Part shown: positions 1 through 49,304 of the stretch, in pieces
How positions within the stretch are numbered: the stretch's first letter is position 1
How the letters are laid out: every line of letters begins with the position of its first letter
Origin: Gemmatimonadota bacterium
GTDB taxonomy: Bacteria > Latescibacterota > UBA2968
Length of the DNA: 53,385 nucleotides
Assembly: GCA_028874765.1 (NCBI GenBank)
Contig: JAPPIE010000113.1
Location: forward strand, 3,553 to 56,937
Reading direction: 5' to 3'
Made by a program: the position numbers and the translations under genes
Notes under the pieces: generated by a model
The model's input: only the letters and a program-made list of their open reading frames with translations
Database searches by the model: none
What the model was told of the DNA's origin: nothing

Positions 1-1124
1 ATGCGGGATATAAGACCGCGTTGTTTGGCAAGTATCATATCCGGCAGGATCCGCGTGGGTTTGATACGTGGTGTATTCATCCCGGGCAGGGGGTGTATTT
101 TGACCCGACGTATATCGATAATGGGAAAGAGGTGCAAAAGGAGGGGTACGCCACGGATATAACGACGGATATGGCGCTTGAATTTTTGAAGGGGTTGGAT
201 GGTGAGCAGCCCTTTTGTCTGGTGTATCAGTTTAAGGCGCCGCATCGACCGTTTACGCCAGCCCCCCGGCACGCGCATCTTTTTGATGATGTTGAGATTC
301 CCCAGCCGGAGACGTATGGCGATGATTTTGCGACGCGGAAGATTGCGGCTCTGGCCGAAGATATGAAGTTTGATATTAGTCTGGCGCCCGATTATGACGA
401 TATACCCGAGGGCTTGAGTGAAGGGGAAAAGAAGGACTGGATTTACCAGCGTTTTATGAAGGATCGGTATCGCACGATTTACGGTGTGGATGAAAATCTG
501 GGGCGGGTGCTGGATTATCTGGATGAGACGGGTTGGGCTGACGATACCCTGGTGATTTACACATCGGATCACGGGTATTTTTTGGGCGATTACGGATGGT
601 ACGACAAGCGGTTTATGTACGAGCCGTCAATTCGCATTCCGCTGGTGGTGCGTTATCCAAATGGGGGTATAAGCGGCAATGTGACCGATGCGCTGGTGAT
701 GAATGTGGATTTTGCGCCGACGATTCTGGATTTTGCGGGTGTGGAAATTCCCGAAGGTGTGCAAGGCGAGAGTTTGCGTCCGTTGCTCCAGGGGACAGAG
801 CCGGATGATTGGCGCAGGTCTGTTTATTACGCTTATTTTGAAGATTCATGGGTGCTGCACGGCAAGGGGGCAGAGGCGATGTCGGAGCCGTCGTTTCAGT
901 ATTTTACGCCGCACCGCATTGGCCCGCACCGCGGCGTGCGTACAGACCGCTACAAGCTGATTGAATATTATGCCGAGGGCGATTACTGGGAGTTGTTCGA
1001 TTTGCAAGAGGATCCCAATGAATTGCGAAATGTGTACGATGACGCCGCGTACGCAGATTTGGTGGCGGAGTTGAAGGCTGGGTTGCGGAGGTTGCAGGTG
1101 CAGTATGGGGATTTGGGTGTGTGA
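1..1124 (+). CDS. Sulfatase, 3' part (5' end outside window)
   Basis: The reading frame is open from base 3 and lacks its start, so about 373 C-terminal residues are visible. Sulfatases of the alkaline-phosphatase superfamily hydrolyse sulfate esters, often on polysaccharides. The first residues read AGYKTALFGKYH, the conserved sulfatase block that normally follows the CxPSR formylglycine motif by some tens of residues. That catalytic motif lies upstream of the window and cannot be checked. Further on, SDHGYFLGDYGWYDKR (about residues 187-202 of the visible part) is the metal-binding Asp-His block, followed by the typical IRIPLVVRYP strand. The C-terminal region (RTDRYKLIEYY, WELFDLQEDPNELRN) is characteristic of the N-sulfoglucosamine/iduronate sulfatase type. 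The gene converges on lpdA with two bases between the stops and no terminator hairpin. Substrate unknown. Confidence 0.93.
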   Translation, partial: AGYKTALFGKYHIRQDPRGFDTWCIHPGQGVYFDPTYIDNGKEVQKEGYATDITTDMALEFLKGLDGEQPFCLVYQFKAPHRPFTPAPRHAHLFDDVEIPQPETYGDDFATRKIAALAEDMKFDISLAPDYDDIPEGLSEGEKKDWIYQRFMKDRYRTIYGVDENLGRVLDYLDETGWADDTLVIYTSDHGYFLGDYGWYDKRFMYEPSIRIPLVVRYPNGGISGNVTDALVMNVDFAPTILDFAGVEIPEGVQGESLRPLLQGTEPDDWRRSVYYAYFEDSWVLHGKGAEAMSEPSFQYFTPHRIGPHRGVRTDRYKLIEYYAEGDYWELFDLQEDPNELRNVYDDAAYADLVAELKAGLRRLQVQYGDLGV

Positions 1125-18680: not shown

Positions 18681-18683
18681 GAT

Positions 18684-18710
18684 GTAGGGGACGGCCCCTG
18701 TGCCGTCCCG
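18684..18710. repeat. GC-rich palindromic dispersed repeat, copy 1
   Basis: Starts four bases after the topA stop. GGGACGGC (18688-18695) and GCCGTCCC (18702-18709) form a perfect 8-bp stem around CCCTGT. A related copy is at 52281-52310, with the same GTAGGGG...CCCCTGTGC core and a similar GTGAGATG text ahead of it. Confidence 0.75.
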
Positions 18711-18712
18711 TG

Positions 18713-18770
18713 TGTCATTGCGGCATGATGTTGAGCCGCCACGCGAAGCATGACGAAGTAATCCAGAGGG
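18713..18770. repeat. Dispersed repeat resembling the 'GTCATTGCG...GAAGTAATCC' family
   Basis: The segment opens with TGTCATTGCGG and closes with CGAAGCATGACGAAGTAATC. It resembles the widespread 'gtcattgcgag...cgaagcaatc' intergenic repeats I know from many bacterial genomes, here with an internal diverged stretch. Only one copy is in the window, so the assignment rests on recognition. Confidence 0.5.
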
Positions 18771-18801
18771 TTTTGAAGGGCGGTGTGAAGTGAGGTAGGC
18801 T

Positions 18802-19644
18802 ATGGAATGGCATGACATTGCACAGCGCATCAAAGCGGGCGGGTATAGAAGACAGAAGACGTATGATACCTTCGGTTTTATTTTAACGGAAGAGTTGATC
18901 ATTCCGTCCGCGAGAATGGAGGATATTGATCTCGATGCGTTTCGGGCCTTTCTGCGTATGCAGGGTCTCGATACAGAGGAGGAACCACAGCCTTCAATCG
19001 CTGACGATCTGTGTAATAGACGCATTTTGGCTGAGTTCGACAATGCCCTGCGTCCGACACTCTATGGATTGATGGCATTTGGTAAAGAGCCGCAGGCGCA
19101 TCCGCAGACAACGAATTTTTTCGTCGAGTGTGTAGCCTATCTGGGCGAGGATCGGGCGTCGGATGTTATTCTCACTGGCGAGGGAAAGGGACGTCTTGAA
19201 GAGCAAATACGCCGGTCAGTCGGATGGGTTCGCGGTTTGGGATGGAAGGAGAGCTATCAGGGCATTGATCGAGAGGAGACGCCACTAATTCCCGAGAAGG
19301 CACTGCGCGAGGCAATCGTCAATGCTGTTGTTCACCGGGACTACGCGATTACAGGGTCGAAGGTGTTGCTCGAAGTATTCCGCGACCGTATTGATGTGAC
19401 CAGTCCAGGGACTTTTCCAAATCATATGAGTGTCGAGAATGTTCGCTCGGGTGGCAATCCCCGATCCCGCAATGAGTTGATGGCAAATGCCATGCTCGTT
19501 GCGCGCTTGATGGAGCAGCGAGGACGCGGATGGCCCGTGATGCGGAGAGAGATGCGAGAATTTAACGGTACTGAGCCAGAAATCGTGCAAGATGAGGGCG
19601 GGAAGTTTGTGCGGGTGACGTTTCGCAAAGGGGTAGAAGGGTAA
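18802..19644 (+). CDS. ATP-binding regulator (COG2865-like), DNA-binding domain apparently deleted
   Basis: 280 residues. Most of it matches the C-terminal part of the AlbA_2/RecG-like transcriptional regulators: DLCNRRILAEFDNALRPTLY, GLMAFGKEPQAHP, then a GHKL-type ATP-binding segment with ALREAIVNAVVHRDYAI. Full-length relatives are usually 380-480 residues and have an N-terminal AlbA_2 (Schlafen-like) domain after a start like this one. Here MEWHDIAQRIKAGG runs almost at once into EELIIPSARMEDIDLDAF, so about 100 residues seem to be missing in frame. ATG 18802 has GAGG six bases upstream. The next gene, an antitoxin-like ORF, starts four bases after the stop. First gene of the topA-xerC island. 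Confidence 0.75.
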   Translation: MEWHDIAQRIKAGGYRRQKTYDTFGFILTEELIIPSARMEDIDLDAFRAFLRMQGLDTEEEPQPSIADDLCNRRILAEFDNALRPTLYGLMAFGKEPQAHPQTTNFFVECVAYLGEDRASDVILTGEGKGRLEEQIRRSVGWVRGLGWKESYQGIDREETPLIPEKALREAIVNAVVHRDYAITGSKVLLEVFRDRIDVTSPGTFPNHMSVENVRSGGNPRSRNELMANAMLVARLMEQRGRGWPVMRREMREFNGTEPEIVQDEGGKFVRVTFRKGVEG

Positions 19645-19647
19645 CGT

Positions 19648-19809
19648 ATGGCTAATAGAGAGGACACCTTAGCAACTTTCCGTCGCGTGCGTGCAATTCA
19701 AGCTGTTGATGATCTCCAAAAGCAATCGGTTGAAAATGGTCTTGATAAGATGGATTTGAAAGAGGTAAACCGCGAAATCCAGGCCGTGCGAAAATCGGAC
19801 ATATTATGA
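19648..19809 (+). CDS. Small antitoxin-like protein, no toxin partner
   Basis: 53 residues, starting MANREDTLATFRRVRAIQAV and ending KEVNREIQAVRKSDIL. The helical pattern with a central LDKMDLKEVNREI resembles small antitoxins that pair with PIN-domain toxins, in which the final 'I..VR' helix docks to the toxin. The next gene on this strand is not a toxin; the neighbouring EIIA gene lies on the opposite strand. It is therefore an orphan or the relic of a toxin-antitoxin pair. The start lies four bases after the preceding gene, suggesting coupled translation. Confidence 0.6.
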   Translation: MANREDTLATFRRVRAIQAVDDLQKQSVENGLDKMDLKEVNREIQAVRKSDIL

Positions 19810-19824
19810 TGTTATGGTATCTCG

Positions 19825-20331
19825 CTAAGACGATGTTTCGACAAAGCTGCCAACCCGATCTTCACCAGATTTAGCCAACCGCTCTTCTTCCGCCTCAATA
19901 ATTGCCAGGGCCTCCTCGCGATTGCTAATGCCAATCAAACGCTGTCTAAAATCTTCTCTTTGGAGTAATCTTGAGATACGAGCGAACGCTTTGATGTGCG
20001 GCCCTGAAACGTCCAGAGGCGAGACCAGAAGAAAAAAAATGTAGGTCTTTTTGCCATCTAAAGAATCAAAATTAATACCTTCCGATTTGATGCCCAGCAC
20101 ACCACTCAGCACCGTGACATTTTCCGACTTCCCATGAGGAATGGCGATGCCGTTTCCTATTCCAGTACTTAGAAGAACTTCGCGTTCTAAAACCGCTTGG
20201 AGCACCTTTTCTCGATCGGTAATCTTATCGCCTACTTTGAGTTCCTTAACAAGCTCTTCGAGAATTGCTGGCTTGTTTTGTCCTTCAAGCTCGACGATGA
20301 CATTGCCCGACAGAATCTCCCTTAACGTCAT
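19825..20331 (-). CDS. PTS EIIA domain protein, copy B
   Basis: 168 residues, a paralogue of copy A at 13548. The phospho-His motif GIAIPHGKSE and the blocks VLGIKSEGINF and IFFLLVSPLDVSGPHIKA are shared. It has one residue fewer near position 10 and a C-terminal tail (about 20 residues, SGEDRVGSFVETSS) absent from copy A. The Shine-Dalgarno is AAGGG. Being in the island and on the opposite strand, it looks like a duplicated or horizontally acquired regulator. It may act as a phosphorylation-dependent switch, but no PTS partner is seen. Confidence 0.88.
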   Translation of the reverse strand: MTLREILSGNVIVELEGQNKPAILEELVKELKVGDKITDREKVLQAVLEREVLLSTGIGNGIAIPHGKSENVTVLSGVLGIKSEGINFDSLDGKKTYIFFLLVSPLDVSGPHIKAFARISRLLQREDFRQRLIGISNREEALAIIEAEEERLAKSGEDRVGSFVETSS

Positions 20332-20559
20332 GATTTTTAGCCCTTATATTGTCCTAATTCATTACAAGCCGTACAGTCACATGGGGTCGTCTGTGCTGGC
20401 ATAATTATTTTAATGTTGAATAAAAAAATTATTCGTGATTGATCATAAGGCTTATCCGTCGATCTCCGATGATTATATTTATCGATAAATTCGCCAAAAA
20501 TTTGTCGTTCGATTTTCAAGTCCTCCGCATCATTTTGTATCGCAGCTTTCTGGAAATTC

Positions 20560-20943
20560 CTATCGTTTTTCTCCATTCCTTAGATTATAGTAGCTCATGC
20601 CAAGTTCATGCCGAGCATGGATATGTTTCTGCTCGGCGGCTTTTTTTAACCATCTTACTGCTTCCCCATGATTTTGAGGTATGCCCAGTCCCTTTCTGTA
20701 GCTCATGGCAAGGTCGTATTGGGAATGTACATATCCCTGTTTGGCAGATTTTTTGTACCACTTCACCGCTTCCGAAAAGTCTTGATCCTTGGCATACATC
20801 ACGCCAATCAGGTGCTGTGCATTGGCCGATCCTTGTACGGCGAGCGGGTACAAGATCTTGCATGCGGTTCTGTAGTCTTTTCGCTCATACGCAACTTTAC
20901 CTGCTTGATAGTCCTCATTGATTTTTTGTTTATGATTATTCAT
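20560..20943 (-). CDS. Sel1-repeat protein
   Basis: 127 residues with three Sel1-like (TPR-related) repeats: YPLAVQGSANAQHLIGVMYA, WYKKSAKQGYVHSQYDLAMS and WLKKAAEQKHIHARHELGMS. Such repeats form a helical scaffold for protein-protein contact. No signal peptide is visible, so it is probably cytoplasmic. ATG 20943 follows AAGGAG at a good distance. It is downstream of the large unknown gene on the same strand and probably in the same transcript (ankyrin, unknown, Sel1). Function unknown. Confidence 0.8.
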   Translation of the reverse strand: MNNHKQKINEDYQAGKVAYERKDYRTACKILYPLAVQGSANAQHLIGVMYAKDQDFSEAVKWYKKSAKQGYVHSQYDLAMSYRKGLGIPQNHGEAVRWLKKAAEQKHIHARHELGMSYYNLRNGEKR

Positions 20944-20976
20944 TTTCGATCTCCTTAGACTTTGGGCCTCTATATT

Positions 20977-21195
20977 TCAGGTCGCGCTCGACCTTTGATG
21001 GGTGCCGATGAATCCGACGATCAAACGCTGACGTCTCTTGTCCCACTCGAAAGCGATCCGTATCGTACGCCGTGCATCTTTTCCGATTCCGGTCCCGATA
21101 TGCCTCTTCAGTATATAAACTTCTTTATCTACGATCGTTTTATACCAAGCGGGGTACGTCTTCGTGATCATATCGTTTTGCCACGGCTTATACAT
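20977..21195 (-). pseudogene. Detached C-terminal segment of the 21168-22760 protein (frameshift) or separate small gene
   Basis: 72 residues in the frame following the large gene, overlapping its end by 28 bases. The text (HIGTGIGKDARRTIRIAFEWD, RLIVGFIGTHQ) looks like the natural C-terminal continuation of the upstream protein: the upstream frame ends in a low-information tail (CISRGKTI), whereas this frame continues with aromatic-rich WMYKPWQND. A single-base shift near 21195 would join the two. If it is translated alone it would start at ATG 21195, without a convincing Shine-Dalgarno. The strand pair IRIAF-WD...LIVGFIG-H faintly recalls RelE-like toxins, but this is not a firm match. Confidence 0.5.
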
Positions 21196-22760
21196 CCATT
21201 ACAGGCCTGTCGGATAGACAAATCGAGATCTGTCACACTGGTCTTCCCGATAAGGGAGTCATAAAGCGTAGTGCTCATCCACTCAAAGGCTTTGTACAAG
21301 ACTTTGGGATCGTTGAAAGGATTGTTTCGTACCTGGGATTTTGCGTTCAGCGCAAAAATGAGTCTGTGTCCAAATTGCTGTTTAGCAAGCTCAACGGCGT
21401 CGTGAACGCTTTCAATGGACAAATCTTCATCTTCACCCGCGGTTGCTGGCGGCTGCTTACTGATCACATCTTCGTAACATTGTCGCCAATATTTGGCTTC
21501 TTTTTGATGATTTTCACTCTCTTCTTGGCTCTTGTGTAATTGCTTTTGTAGCGATTCGACCCGGTCATAAAGACGTTGATTCTCAGATTGCAAAGATATA
21601 TACTCTGCCTCGGAAAACGTCGGTCCATTTTCTATCCCAGATTTGACATCATCTGGCACCTCGAGGGGCTGCTCATCGATCTTCCCGTTCGTTTTCTGGC
21701 CTCCTGCTCCAGGGAATGAACTTCCGTTGACCACCTTACCTGCCTGGTCGGGCGGGTCTGCCTCAGCACCTGTCGCTTCGTCAAAGTTGTCTATTCCAGA
21801 AGGAAAATCGTCATCTGGCCCATGACCTCCGGTCATAAGCTGATCGATATGATCCAGGATCGGCAAGATGCGAGGCTCCAACTTCGCCCGCTTCTGCCTT
21901 CTAATCCGCTCCTCGGTCAAAACAGGCGCAATTCCATAAATAGGTTGATACTCAATCAGCAAAGACTGCAATTCCTCTGTCATTTTAAGTGCTTTTGCTA
22001 CATCGGCATCCGGTGAGAGTTTATTCGCAGACCAAAACGCGACATCTTGTTGGAAGAAAGCCATCTCTGCTGAGAAATTATTGAGGACACCTGCAATCGC
22101 GTCATCGAGCGCGACTGCAAGACCTCGCTGCTCTTCTTTCTTCTCTCGAATCGCATTCAGTTCCTCGATAAAATCTGGAATCCTCTCCAATTCCGCTGAG
22201 GTCGGCGGGAGTGACCTCAAATACTCAAGCCCTTGCGACAAAATATCGTCCTTGGTTTCTCCAGATGGTATTTTCCCCGATGCATAGCACAACATGAGAG
22301 CGATATCGTTATGATCGAAATCGTCGTAGCGTTCGAGAATTTTATTCGTTTCGCGCAGCCAGGTATCGCTAAACCAGGTGCTTCGGAATCGATTCTTCGC
22401 ACAGTCTGGATACTCCACCGGCATAGCCAGATTCTCGAGATGTTTAACAACCACATCGCTGAGTGTGTCCTGCGACTCTGCCCAGGCTTTCAAAACCACT
22501 GCGGTTAGCATGTCCGATCGCATCGTGGCCTTCAAAATAGGTTTTATGAGAAAAGGCGTCGGTGCTTTAGCGGGGTAATTTGGAAATTGCGGCACTTTCA
22601 CAGTTTTATTTATAGCTGAATTGAGCGATCCCTGCGCCTCTTTTGACACCTTATCCCGTGAATTCAGCGCGCGTTTGACCACAGCTTCGTGATAGTCCGA
22701 CTCCATGAATCTAAAGATTGTACTCAGTTGCAAACTATCAGTCATATCGCTCGAGAACAT
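21168..22760 (-). CDS. Large protein of unknown function with central coiled coil
   Basis: 530 residues from ATG 22760, chosen because GGAG lies six bases upstream; an earlier in-frame ATG at 22850 would overlap the ankyrin gene. No family recognised. The N-terminal 250 residues are helical. Around residues 265-320 comes a basic helical stretch (TEERIRRQKRAKLEPRILPILDHIDQL), then a low-complexity acidic/Gly linker (about 320-395). Next is a coiled coil (about 400-450, LQSENQRLYDRVESLQKQLHKSQEE). The final domain, KQQFGHRLIFALNAKSQVRN onward, seems to be cut short by a frameshift. No signal peptide or membrane segment. It sits between ankyrin and Sel1 genes, so protein-protein interaction is a likely theme. 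Confidence 0.7.
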   Translation of the reverse strand: MFSSDMTDSLQLSTIFRFMESDYHEAVVKRALNSRDKVSKEAQGSLNSAINKTVKVPQFPNYPAKAPTPFLIKPILKATMRSDMLTAVVLKAWAESQDTLSDVVVKHLENLAMPVEYPDCAKNRFRSTWFSDTWLRETNKILERYDDFDHNDIALMLCYASGKIPSGETKDDILSQGLEYLRSLPPTSAELERIPDFIEELNAIREKKEEQRGLAVALDDAIAGVLNNFSAEMAFFQQDVAFWSANKLSPDADVAKALKMTEELQSLLIEYQPIYGIAPVLTEERIRRQKRAKLEPRILPILDHIDQLMTGGHGPDDDFPSGIDNFDEATGAEADPPDQAGKVVNGSSFPGAGGQKTNGKIDEQPLEVPDDVKSGIENGPTFSEAEYISLQSENQRLYDRVESLQKQLHKSQEESENHQKEAKYWRQCYEDVISKQPPATAGEDEDLSIESVHDAVELAKQQFGHRLIFALNAKSQVRNNPFNDPKVLYKAFEWMSTTLYDSLIGKTSVTDLDLSIRQACNGCISRGKTI

Positions 22761-22830
22761 AATCATCTCCAATACCTTTACGGCTGGAGCCAGGGCGTTC
22801 CCCCATTTGGCGCCACGAGAGCTTTTCTCC

Positions 22831-23217
22831 TCAAAGCTCACTGGCTCCAACCAAAGGGGCTGCGGACATTAATTCCATCATCTCAGGGCTGCTAGCGAAA
22901 TACTTAGGCGTCCTACTCCGAGCGTCACATACATCGGTGGTTGCTCCGTGTGCAATCAGCACGGCGGCTGTTTGGAGGGCATTGCTCTTTGCGGCAATAT
23001 GCAAGGCACTCCAGCCTGAGTCATTGAGAGATTCAACATCGGCCCCGAAGTCGAGAAGCAATTTCAAGATCGGGACATCGTCAAGCATTGCAGCTATCAT
23101 CAGAGGCGTACTGCCAACCGAGTTCCTGGCATCCTTATCGATGCCTTGGTTCAGGAGTCCTTCGATACATGAAGGATCCTCTCCATCTAAAATCGCCTGA
23201 TGGATCGTATTTTGCAC
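22831..23217 (-). CDS. Ankyrin-repeat protein
   Basis: 128 residues with three to four ankyrin repeats (GSTPLMIAAMLDDVPILKLL, GWSALHIAAKSNALQTAAVL, and a partial RTPKYFASSPEMMELM). The start is GTG 23217, supported by AGGAGG six bases upstream. There is no signal peptide; it is cytoplasmic. It is the first gene of a probable minus-strand unit with the 530-residue unknown and the Sel1 protein. The upstream region contains a divergent promoter driving a putative small RNA. Function unknown; ankyrin proteins often act as immunity or adaptor factors. Confidence 0.85.
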   Translation of the reverse strand: MQNTIHQAILDGEDPSCIEGLLNQGIDKDARNSVGSTPLMIAAMLDDVPILKLLLDFGADVESLNDSGWSALHIAAKSNALQTAAVLIAHGATTDVCDARSRTPKYFASSPEMMELMSAAPLVGASEL

Positions 23218-23250
23218 TGTGAACCTCCTCTCCGTTGAATAAAAAAAGAG

Positions 23251-23279
23251 TTGACCTATCAGAAATAAATTCCTATATT
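23251..23279 (+). promoter_or_regulatory. Sigma-70-type promoter of putative small RNA
   Basis: TTGACC (23251-23256), an exact 17-base spacer and TATATT (23274-23279). No plus-strand gene follows before the terminator at 23324-23365, so it seems to drive a short transcript. It is divergent from the ankyrin gene start by only about 35 bases. Confidence 0.65.
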
Positions 23280-23285
23280 TAAAAG

Positions 23286-23365
23286 AGTTAGGGTCAGGCT
23301 GTTGTTTGGTCTTTGACCAATCCGGCCTTTTACGTTTGGACAGAACGTAAAAGGCCTATTTTTTT
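23286..23365 (+). ncRNA. Candidate ~80-nt small RNA
   Basis: The segment between the promoter at 23251 and the T-run ending at 23365. It contains a short hairpin TTGGTC-TTT-GACCAA (23306-23320) and then a perfect 13-bp hairpin GGCCTTTTACGTT/AACGTAAAAGGCC (23324-23336 and 23344-23356). No Shine-Dalgarno/ATG pair is seen inside. The exact 5' end is predicted only. No known family recognised. Confidence 0.5.
23324..23365 (+). terminator. Strong intrinsic terminator with 13-bp stem
   Basis: GGCCTTTTACGTT, loop TGGACAG, AACGTAAAAGGCC, then TATTTTTTT. The T-run follows on the plus strand only. No plus-strand coding gene lies within 3.5 kb upstream, which is why a small RNA is proposed. Confidence 0.8.
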
Positions 23366-23681
23366 CGGAATTATACACGATATTTCAGAATCATAAAGAA
23401 CCTAACAGAACTTCATGCAATACTTAATACAAAGATATAGAACTAAAAATTCAAGTCAAGTCTTTTTTTCGGCTTATTTTTTCTATATTTGCGATTATTT
23501 TTATTTGCGTTGGACAGAATGCGAAGCCCTATTTCATTTTTAAAATTATACACAATACTTCAGAATTATAAAGAACCTAACATAATTCCGAACAATCTCT
23601 ATGAATATACATAACTGAAAAGTCGAGTCAAGTCTTTTTAGACTTGTTTTTTTTATATTTGCGACTATTTTTATTCGAGGG
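23336..23681. repeat. Tandem duplication of a ~174-bp AT-rich unit
   Basis: Unit 1 begins at 23336 and unit 2 at 23510, both with TTGGACAGAA. Further shared blocks are TTATACAC, CAGAAT-ATAAAGAACCTAACA, AGTCAAGTCTTTTT and TATATTTGCGA-TATTTTTATT, with scattered differences between. Each unit ends in a hairpin plus T-run: weak, with a G-T pair, in unit 1; perfect in unit 2 (23629-23654). No coding capacity seen. Confidence 0.8.
23629..23654 (+). terminator. Intrinsic terminator at the end of repeat unit 2
   Basis: CAAGTCT (23629-23635), TTTT loop, AGACTTG (23640-23646), followed by eight T. It has no clear upstream gene, which again suggests a short non-coding transcript or an attenuator ahead of the gene at 23743. 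Confidence 0.7.
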
Positions 23682-23742
23682 GATAGACTAGCGTAGAGGT
23701 ATATTCACGTCAGGTAGATAGTCAAGAGAATGGAGGTATGTA

Positions 23743-24084
23743 ATGGAAATGACCACTTTTTTAGGAGTTCTGTTGGCGGCTGCTGTTTTTGTGATCATCA
23801 TGCTTATTGTGGGAGAAATTCCCGCATTGAAGAAACAGTTGAGAGAACGTGACGAATCGCTCAAAACTGCGAATAGCCAAATTTCCGAGTATAAGAAACA
23901 GTTGAGAGGACGTGACGAATCGCTCAAAACTGCGAATAGCCAAATTTCCAATATCTCAAAGAGAAGTGACTTTTTCGAAAATGATCTCAAGGAACTCCTT
24001 GAGGTAATTAATGAGGGTAACATCACGCAAATCCAAGGTCGAGCTGCTGATAGTCAAGATGCCCTCATACAATATGAAAAGTAA
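23743..24084 (+). CDS. Small membrane-anchored coiled-coil protein
   Basis: 113 residues. An N-terminal hydrophobic segment (residues 5-24, FLGVLLAAAVFVIIMLIVG) anchors it, followed by a coiled coil made of two nearly identical 19-residue blocks, KKQLRERDESLKTANSQIS, spaced 21 residues (three heptads) apart. The remaining 45 residues are acidic and helical. ATG 23743 has GGAGG six bases upstream. No family recognised; it could be a structural anchor or a small phage-type spanin/holin-associated protein, without support for either. Confidence 0.65.
   Translation: MEMTTFLGVLLAAAVFVIIMLIVGEIPALKKQLRERDESLKTANSQISEYKKQLRGRDESLKTANSQISNISKRSDFFENDLKELLEVINEGNITQIQGRAADSQDALIQYEK
23830..23949. repeat. 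57-bp direct repeat inside the coiled-coil gene
   Basis: Copies at 23830-23886 and 23893-23949 differ by one base (GAA versus GGA, Glu to Gly). The 63-base period keeps the frame and the heptad register. Confidence 0.9.
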
Positions 24085-24315
24085 ATGTGAATAAACTCTA
24101 AGTGACCGACATCACCTTTGTGCTCACTTGGTCAGGCTTCTTGTATCTGACGGCTAAAGATTGTAAAAGCGCATACATCGCAAACCTGGTTATCTCCATA
24201 TATATGGCAGGCTCAGATATCTGAACCCAATGCCTGAAACATACAATGGAGGTGGCCAAGATTCACCTTTTTTGGCGAAGGTTTTAACTATTGTTGTTAT
24301 TTTAAGAGGTACCTG
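24085..24315. other. Intergenic region without recognised gene
   Basis: 231 bases between two plus-strand genes. A weak inverted repeat AAGTGA...TCACTT lies at its start, and ACCTT...AAGGT with a short T-run near 24270. I see no tRNA, no convincing ORF and no consensus promoter. The following gene at 24316 has AAGAGG as a possible Shine-Dalgarno. Confidence 0.5.
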
Positions 24316-25272
24316 ATGGCAAATAAGAAAACGCGAGCTTACAGCGTTCTATTTGAACAAGCTGTCGGAGATGATAATAAACTATTTGATAATCCAACTG
24401 CTCTCGCTATCAAAATGACTGAGTGGAAAATCCACAGTTCCGACAATTCAGCCAGTCTGGCTTCTTATTTAAATCAGACCTTCTCGCGTGGGCAACGAAG
24501 TTGTTCAAGTGAACTGCAAGAGCAGCTAAACAAGGCCATTGATATACGATTTCAAGAGAGCAAGGTCCAGAATAGCAAATCTCAGAGCGATCTGTGGAAG
24601 AAACGGCTTGCCTGTGCCATAGATGCAGATAATGCTGATTTTGGTTTTCCTCACCCTCTAAATGCCATACAACTTACGTACGATTTCTTTGAGCGGGCTG
24701 AGTATGCAGAGGAGCAATTTATCATCACGTCGTATCCACCTGAGTTTGTCCTGACTGAGGATGCGGTAACGCTGCAGAATATCCTGCTACGACGCTTAGG
24801 TCTGATTGACTTTGAAGATAGACCAGAGTCAGATGAGCCAAAGGTGCGCTATACTTTTAACTTTCCGTCTGAGGAGATGGCGGAAAGATGGTGGTGGGCT
24901 TTATACGATGCGGTTGAAGTCCATGCGGAAAGAAATTCCCAAAAGGGACGCGCTTCTGAAGAGGATATTCATGGTGAACTCAAGACTCTGAACGAAGCAG
25001 GTCGTCTGGTTGTGCAGGTCATATCACCGGAGCTATGTGCCTTACCAATTGTCGCTTTCGACCCAACTGAGGGGAATGCCTCCGCCTATGTGTTTTTTTA
25101 TTTTGACGGAATAAGAAATGAAGGGGGTAGAGCGGCTCAAGACTCTCTGAGTATGGCTAAGTTGGACCGCCATACCTATATGACGTGGCGTGAGGCAGTG
25201 TACCGACCTATCCGACGTGGTCAAATTGAGGCGAAAAAGATAGAATATTCAGAAATTGTTTTAAAAACCTGA
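24316..25272 (+). CDS. Protein of unknown function
   Basis: 318 residues, probably cytoplasmic, with no signal peptide or membrane segment. Family not recognised. Three parts can be seen. An N-terminal helical region of about 70 residues (TALAIKMTEWKIHSSDNSASLASYLNQ) has the spacing of a small DNA-binding or adaptor helical bundle. A middle part (DLWKKRLACAIDADNADFGF...DFFERAEYAEEQFIIT) may be alpha/beta. A C-terminal mixed part contains RYTFNFPSEEMAERWWWALYD and a beta-rich stretch before the end. It is the last gene of the island, 17 bases before xerC, with the start ATG 24316 after AAGAGG. Confidence 0.6.
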   Translation: MANKKTRAYSVLFEQAVGDDNKLFDNPTALAIKMTEWKIHSSDNSASLASYLNQTFSRGQRSCSSELQEQLNKAIDIRFQESKVQNSKSQSDLWKKRLACAIDADNADFGFPHPLNAIQLTYDFFERAEYAEEQFIITSYPPEFVLTEDAVTLQNILLRRLGLIDFEDRPESDEPKVRYTFNFPSEEMAERWWWALYDAVEVHAERNSQKGRASEEDIHGELKTLNEAGRLVVQVISPELCALPIVAFDPTEGNASAYVFFYFDGIRNEGGRAAQDSLSMAKLDRHTYMTWREAVYRPIRRGQIEAKKIEYSEIVLKT

Positions 25273-25289
25273 GTTGATTCTGTGCGGAT

Positions 25290-49054: not shown

Positions 49055-49083
49055 TTGACAAATGGATGGATAAGGCATATTAT
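49055..49083 (+). promoter_or_regulatory. Sigma-70-type promoter of a short transcription unit
   Basis: TTGACA (49055-49060), exactly 17 bases, TATTAT (49078-49083). The transcript would start near 49090 and end at the terminator 49255-49289, just before holB. Confidence 0.7.
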
Positions 49084-49127
49084 TTTTCACCGTGTATGTG
49101 ATATACTTTTGATTGTGGAGCCGTTCC

Positions 49128-49223
49128 ATGTTGTTTTTTGTGCCAACAATGCCAATGCCAATGCCCGTCACTGTACGGGCTGCACATGTTGTACATTCCC
49201 ATTGTGAGCAGGAGCATGGATAG
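49128..49223 (+). CDS. Possible 31-residue peptide ORF (low confidence)
   Basis: ATG 49128 is preceded by GGAG at a seven-base distance. The peptide is MLFFVPTMPMPMPVTVRAAH continued by a His-rich end. The same stretch in another frame (GTG 49115, stop 49207) encodes a Cys-rich 30-mer ending CTGCTCCTFPL, without a good Shine-Dalgarno. Either frame, or neither, may be translated. The ~200-nt unit has its own promoter and terminator, so it may also be a regulatory RNA. Confidence 0.3.
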   Translation: MLFFVPTMPMPMPVTVRAAHVVHSHCEQEHG

Positions 49224-49254
49224 CGGATCATTTTAGTCGTTTGCATTATGAAAC

Positions 49255-49289
49255 AAAGCCGTTGGAATGTTCCGTTCCAGCGGCTTTTT
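49255..49289 (+). terminator. Intrinsic terminator upstream of holB
   Basis: AAAGCCGTTGGAA / TTCCAGCGGCTTT stem of 13 pairs with one G-T pair, loop TGTTCCG, then TTTTT. It ends 15 bases before the holB start. Confidence 0.82.
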
Positions 49290-49304
49290 ATGTGAGAGGC
49301 GATA

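Follow-up and report, generated by a model that had tools for sequence, protein, structure and literature searches.

The variable site between topA and xerC

The intergenic block analysed here is part of an accessory island, which occupies a variable site flanked by topA and xerC. In the window, by which we mean the whole stretch of 53,385 nucleotides that was analysed, this site extends from topA-HATPase to xerC (18681-25289) and is apparently an accessory-gene hotspot of the genus; the length of the interval varies, from 343 bp in G001 through 520 bp in G008 to as much as 5.6 kb in the window. The minus-strand genes of the island, which encode PTS EIIA, Sel1, a 560-aa protein of unknown family and the ankyrin protein, all lie left of the block, and the plus-strand genes, for a small coiled-coil protein and then a 318-aa protein, lie right of it. 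As originally predicted, the plus strand is free of genes for about 3.5 kb upstream, its last gene ending at 19644, 3.6 kb away, and the distance from the promoter to the ankyrin start (23217), predicted to be about 35 bases, was measured as 34 nt. The features of the block and its surroundings are as follows.

22831-23217, minus strand: ankyrin-repeat gene, divergent from the candidate small RNA; overlaps the gene at 21168-22850 (unknown family)
23251-23279, plus strand: predicted sigma-70-type promoter TTGACC-17-TATATT (TTGATT-17-TATATT in the sister species G004)
23286-23362, plus strand: candidate small RNA of about 75-80 nt with predicted ends, without a conserved ORF
23287-23317, plus strand: 5' stem-loop of the candidate RNA (includes TTGGTC/GACCAA), with 79% of the sequence kept but no conserved structure
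23324-23362, plus strand: predicted intrinsic terminator of 13 bp and a G-U pair, followed by a T-run; loop GGACA(G) conserved
23336-23507: tandem unit, copy 1, about 172 nt, holding the loop and 3' arm of the terminator, a leftward promoter-like site and TATATTTGCG
23432-23459, minus strand: leftward promoter-like site TTGACT-16-TATCTT; an ankyrin leader starting here would be antisense to the small RNA
23508-23680: tandem unit, copy 2, with a weaker hairpin that has the same loop (GCGTTGGACAGAATGC)
23604-23631, minus strand: second putative leftward promoter-like site, TTGACT-16-TATATT, within the duplicated unit
23743-24084, plus strand: gene for a small coiled-coil protein with a hydrophobic N-terminus, downstream of the block
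49055-49290, plus strand: candidate non-coding RNA of about 200 nt with a promoter TTGACA-17-TATTAT and a 13-bp terminator, its consensus fold being rod-like

The 560-aa gene (20977-22850, minus strand) looks split by a frameshift in the window, because the C-terminal part of its congeneric homologues sits there in a separate overlapping ORF (20977-21195); in G004 the gene is shortened to 206 aa. An AlphaFold model of the 560-aa protein was too poor for interpretation (pLDDT 53). We also considered the island as a defence system and rejected this reading, for which the matches were weak or repeat-driven only, such as HEC-07 with E = 4e-4 for the 560-aa gene. The small coiled-coil gene contains an in-frame tandem repeat of 63 nt (21 aa) at 23816-23941. 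In addition, about 150 nt within 19645-19824, where no gene was called, are 89-95% identical in G003, G005, G007 and G010, not in G004, and the position of this stretch varies between topA and xerC across those four genomes.

The predicted promoter, RNA and terminator

On the plus strand at 23251-23362 we indeed found the predicted arrangement, in which TTGACC-17-TATATT is followed by a terminator hairpin with a T-run and no gene is present. Transcription is predicted to start at about 23286, downstream of the -10 box TATATT ending at 23279. The terminator stem GGCCTTTTACGTTTGGACAGAACGTAAAAGGCC (23324-23356), originally described as a hairpin of 13 bp, comprises 13 Watson-Crick pairs and, in addition, one G-U pair, and the T-run TATTTTTTT comes next. 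The folding energy of the RNA from 23286 to 23366 is -32.8 kcal/mol, compared with -16.9 kcal/mol for shuffled sequences (z = -5.7). The TTGGTC/GACCAA hairpin is present, but the best fold forms a longer stem, with GTTAGGGTCAGGC pairing 3'-wards.

We evaluated these elements against shuffles of the 525-nt intergenic region. A promoter scoring at least 10/12, taken alone, appeared in 27% of the shuffles and is thus common by chance; a terminator with at least 11 perfect pairs, or a promoter and terminator in this order, appeared in 0 of 2000. Upstream of genes in the genus, TTGAC-16..18-TAnnnT occurs 13 times versus 0.6 expected and TATATT 24 times versus 7 expected, both counts including orthologues of one another and hence not being independent. 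The wording of the predicted promoter at 23251 fits that of the lineage's own promoters.

The candidate RNA has no conserved coding frame, as its 14-codon TTG frame is gone in G004 (TTGGTC to TTAGTC), and the reading of the block as a small ORF was dropped since the frame is not conserved. The terminator, about 40 nt past the expected start, would serve only a transcript that starts in the 110 nt before it. Since neither of the divergent genes needs a terminator there, a short transcript from the 23251 promoter would best explain its presence.

Conservation in the genus

We then compared the locus with the sister species G004, which belongs to the same genus and carries the block at the matching position (138 nt, aligned to 23226-23363, 79% identical). 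A pattern scan of GTDB r220 recovered this block in record JAJEDY010000095.1, from Candidatus Latescibacterota. The gene order in G004, spliced from two contigs whose ends overlap at the transposase gene, is topA, HATPase, EIIA, a fragment of the 560-aa gene, the block, an insertion sequence, the small coiled-coil gene, the 318-aa gene (83% identical between the window and G004) and xerC. The alignable block stops at the terminator, beyond which, to the right, the intergenic DNA is for the most part not alignable.

The block is present in 2 of the 11 genomes of the genus, the window's own and G004, and absent from the other nine. A covariance model of the promoter and terminator likewise found only these two among 64 genomes of the phylum, the next matches having E of about 0.3-1. 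Besides G004, pattern scans of GTDB r220 and IMG/VR gave chance matches only, coding-looking and without a terminator, and the loop pattern TTNGGACAGAACG had no more matches in the genus than its reversed control. The block is also a single copy in the window's genome and in G004, at the same locus in both, which speaks against a mobile or repeated element (MITE, REP-like or attC-like hairpin); we thus regard this explanation as very unlikely, despite the large hairpin, the adjoining tandem duplication and the imperfect inverted repeats at 23232/23681.

Between the window and G004, six columns of the terminator stem differ, through one C-G to G-C double change, one U-A to U-G change and three single-base gaps. 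Both stems nevertheless have a stability of about -20 kcal/mol, which only 0.16% of random mutants carrying the same number of changes reach. For the RNA as a whole, the consensus fold scored better than each of 500 column shuffles, a result that is due to the terminator; the compensatory pairs by themselves, counted from two sequences, are too few for significance. Judged from its sequence, the terminator is functional, since its stem stays stable through these changes and the consensus fold beats the shuffles. The 5' domain alone has no conserved structure, 130 of 500 column shuffles being as good. Of the two hairpins that the original prediction expected to be conserved in a homologous island, the terminator was therefore borne out and the 5' TTGGTC/GACCAA hairpin was not. 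Likewise, for the proposed small RNA of about 80 nt, the G004 block with its kept terminator stem backs a short, terminated, non-coding transcript, but without the 5' hairpin as a conserved part.

The 5' part of the RNA is identical at 30 of 38 nt in G004, a comparison of two sequences in which its rate is near neutral. Four-fold degenerate sites in the neighbouring genes (topA, HATPase, EIIA) are 72-81% identical, and the divergence of the block, 20 of 112 sites, is similar, so that there is no clear slow-down in the RNA body. This neutral-like divergence, together with the narrow distribution and a regional GC of 0.32, is in line with a by-product without a role, arising from spurious rightward initiation at the AT-rich divergent promoter region, with the terminator kept solely to block read-through. 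We consider this explanation possible but doubtful, because G004 has the identical -10 box and the same 14 nt TAAATTCCTATATT, and because the block is alignable, whereas most of the surrounding intergenic DNA is not. Given the promoter, the terminator and the conservation of both in G004, the block probably yields a short, terminated, non-coding RNA of about 75 bases.

As a control, applying the screen for promoter-terminator pairs to the window returned one other pair, at 49055-49290 on the plus strand, flanked by GroES-like and DNA polymerase III delta-prime-like genes (named from sequence only). This RNA is conserved throughout the genus, in 11 of 11 genomes (90-96% in nine of the other ten, 79% in G009), together with its promoter, rod-like fold and terminator. 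Two further genera of the family gave partial matches, and as an RNA gene it is far stronger than the candidate at 23286-23362. It has no match in Rfam. The 6S family model matched 6 of 14 control genomes and none of the 11 genomes of the genus, and since it finds nothing in the genus, the 49055-49290 RNA is possibly a divergent 6S-like RNA.

Predicted leftward transcription and possible roles of the RNA

To the right of the block, the two copies of about 172 nt (23336-23680) are 80-88% identical and share the hairpin loop GGACAG. The strongest leftward promoter-like sites (23459, 23631, and TATAAT boxes at 23370 and 23545) all lie right of the block, and the stretch from the ankyrin start to the block contains no leftward promoter-like site of at least 9/12. 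The G004 locus has no leftward promoter-like site of at least 9/12 and also no ankyrin gene; there, the conserved ribosome-binding site precedes a different frame of about 82 codons.

We propose that RNA polymerase would start near 23286 at TTGACC-17-TATATT and produce an RNA of about 75-80 nt, which would encode no protein and end at the intrinsic terminator. Since the best candidates for a leftward promoter are found on the right side of the block, the leftward mRNA of the ankyrin operon would begin there, and its leader would then be fully complementary to the small RNA, which would control the operon by cis-antisense action or transcriptional interference. With moderate confidence, we thus interpret the block as a stand-alone small-RNA gene, for which cis-antisense control of, or interference with, the ankyrin operon would be the likeliest role. 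Taken by itself, such control or interference is a tentative proposal. Against the favoured reading stand the substitution rate of the block, similar to that of four-fold degenerate sites, the G004 locus without an ankyrin gene or a leftward site of at least 9/12, the ankyrin ribosome-binding site left uncovered and the chance-level pairing with neighbouring start regions. We find it improbable that the island's small RNA may control, by antisense pairing to the leader of the leftward operon, a rapidly changing set of ankyrin and coiled-coil genes, with the leader, the promoter and the terminator hairpin loop tandemly duplicated.

Two other functions were weighed against the stand-alone antisense gene. 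Its own promoter and terminator, its shortness and its partly identical 5' part (30/38 nt in G004) would also suit a trans-acting small RNA with distant mRNAs as pairing partners; however, the predicted pairing with the start regions of neighbouring genes was no better than with shuffled sequences, so that no target appears among them, and we judge a trans-acting role to be unlikely. A little less probable still is an attenuated leader of the coiled-coil gene (23743), in which transcription would mostly stop at the terminator and read through under some condition. The coiled-coil gene is indeed on the same strand, with its start 380 nt downstream; G004 shows synteny of the intergenic region, and the sequence just upstream of the corresponding gene matches there too. 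However, a promoter-like site lies nearer to the coiled-coil gene (TATATTTGCG, about 23655-23665), and an insertion element separates the block from that gene in G004. Moreover, an attenuator or riboswitch leader is disfavoured because the window and G004 share no alternative pairing, the 5' arm of the G004 terminator staying unpaired when the 3' arm is blocked.

The stand-alone small-RNA gene that we favour has counterparts among known systems. SIPHT-type searches have reported >45,000 intergenic small-RNA loci across bacteria, most of them conserved only in close relatives (PMC2527527). The block resembles those candidates in its intergenic position, its own predicted promoter and rho-independent terminator and its conservation in a close relative only, but comes from an uncultured phylum and has one orthologue only. 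Like cis-encoded antisense RNAs (PMC8464778), it would be transcribed opposite the 5' leader of a neighbouring mRNA, and its loop UUGG fits the YUNR motif found in some loops of these RNAs; it differs from them in that the overlap follows from predicted promoters only, that the candidate small RNA leaves the ankyrin ribosome-binding site uncovered, and that the presumed target is absent in G004. An Rfam search with the block, at the gathering score and at E up to 5, gave nothing above gathering, and the best bacterial match, BTnc049 (17.7 bits, E = 2, gathering score 81.9), was taken as chance.

The block is thus a new candidate of a well-known kind of element, one ordinary candidate among many. 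Since a limited full-text literature search for Latescibacterota and small RNA found no paper, even candidates are useful as starting points. If the antisense role holds true, the block would be a regulator for a variable island.
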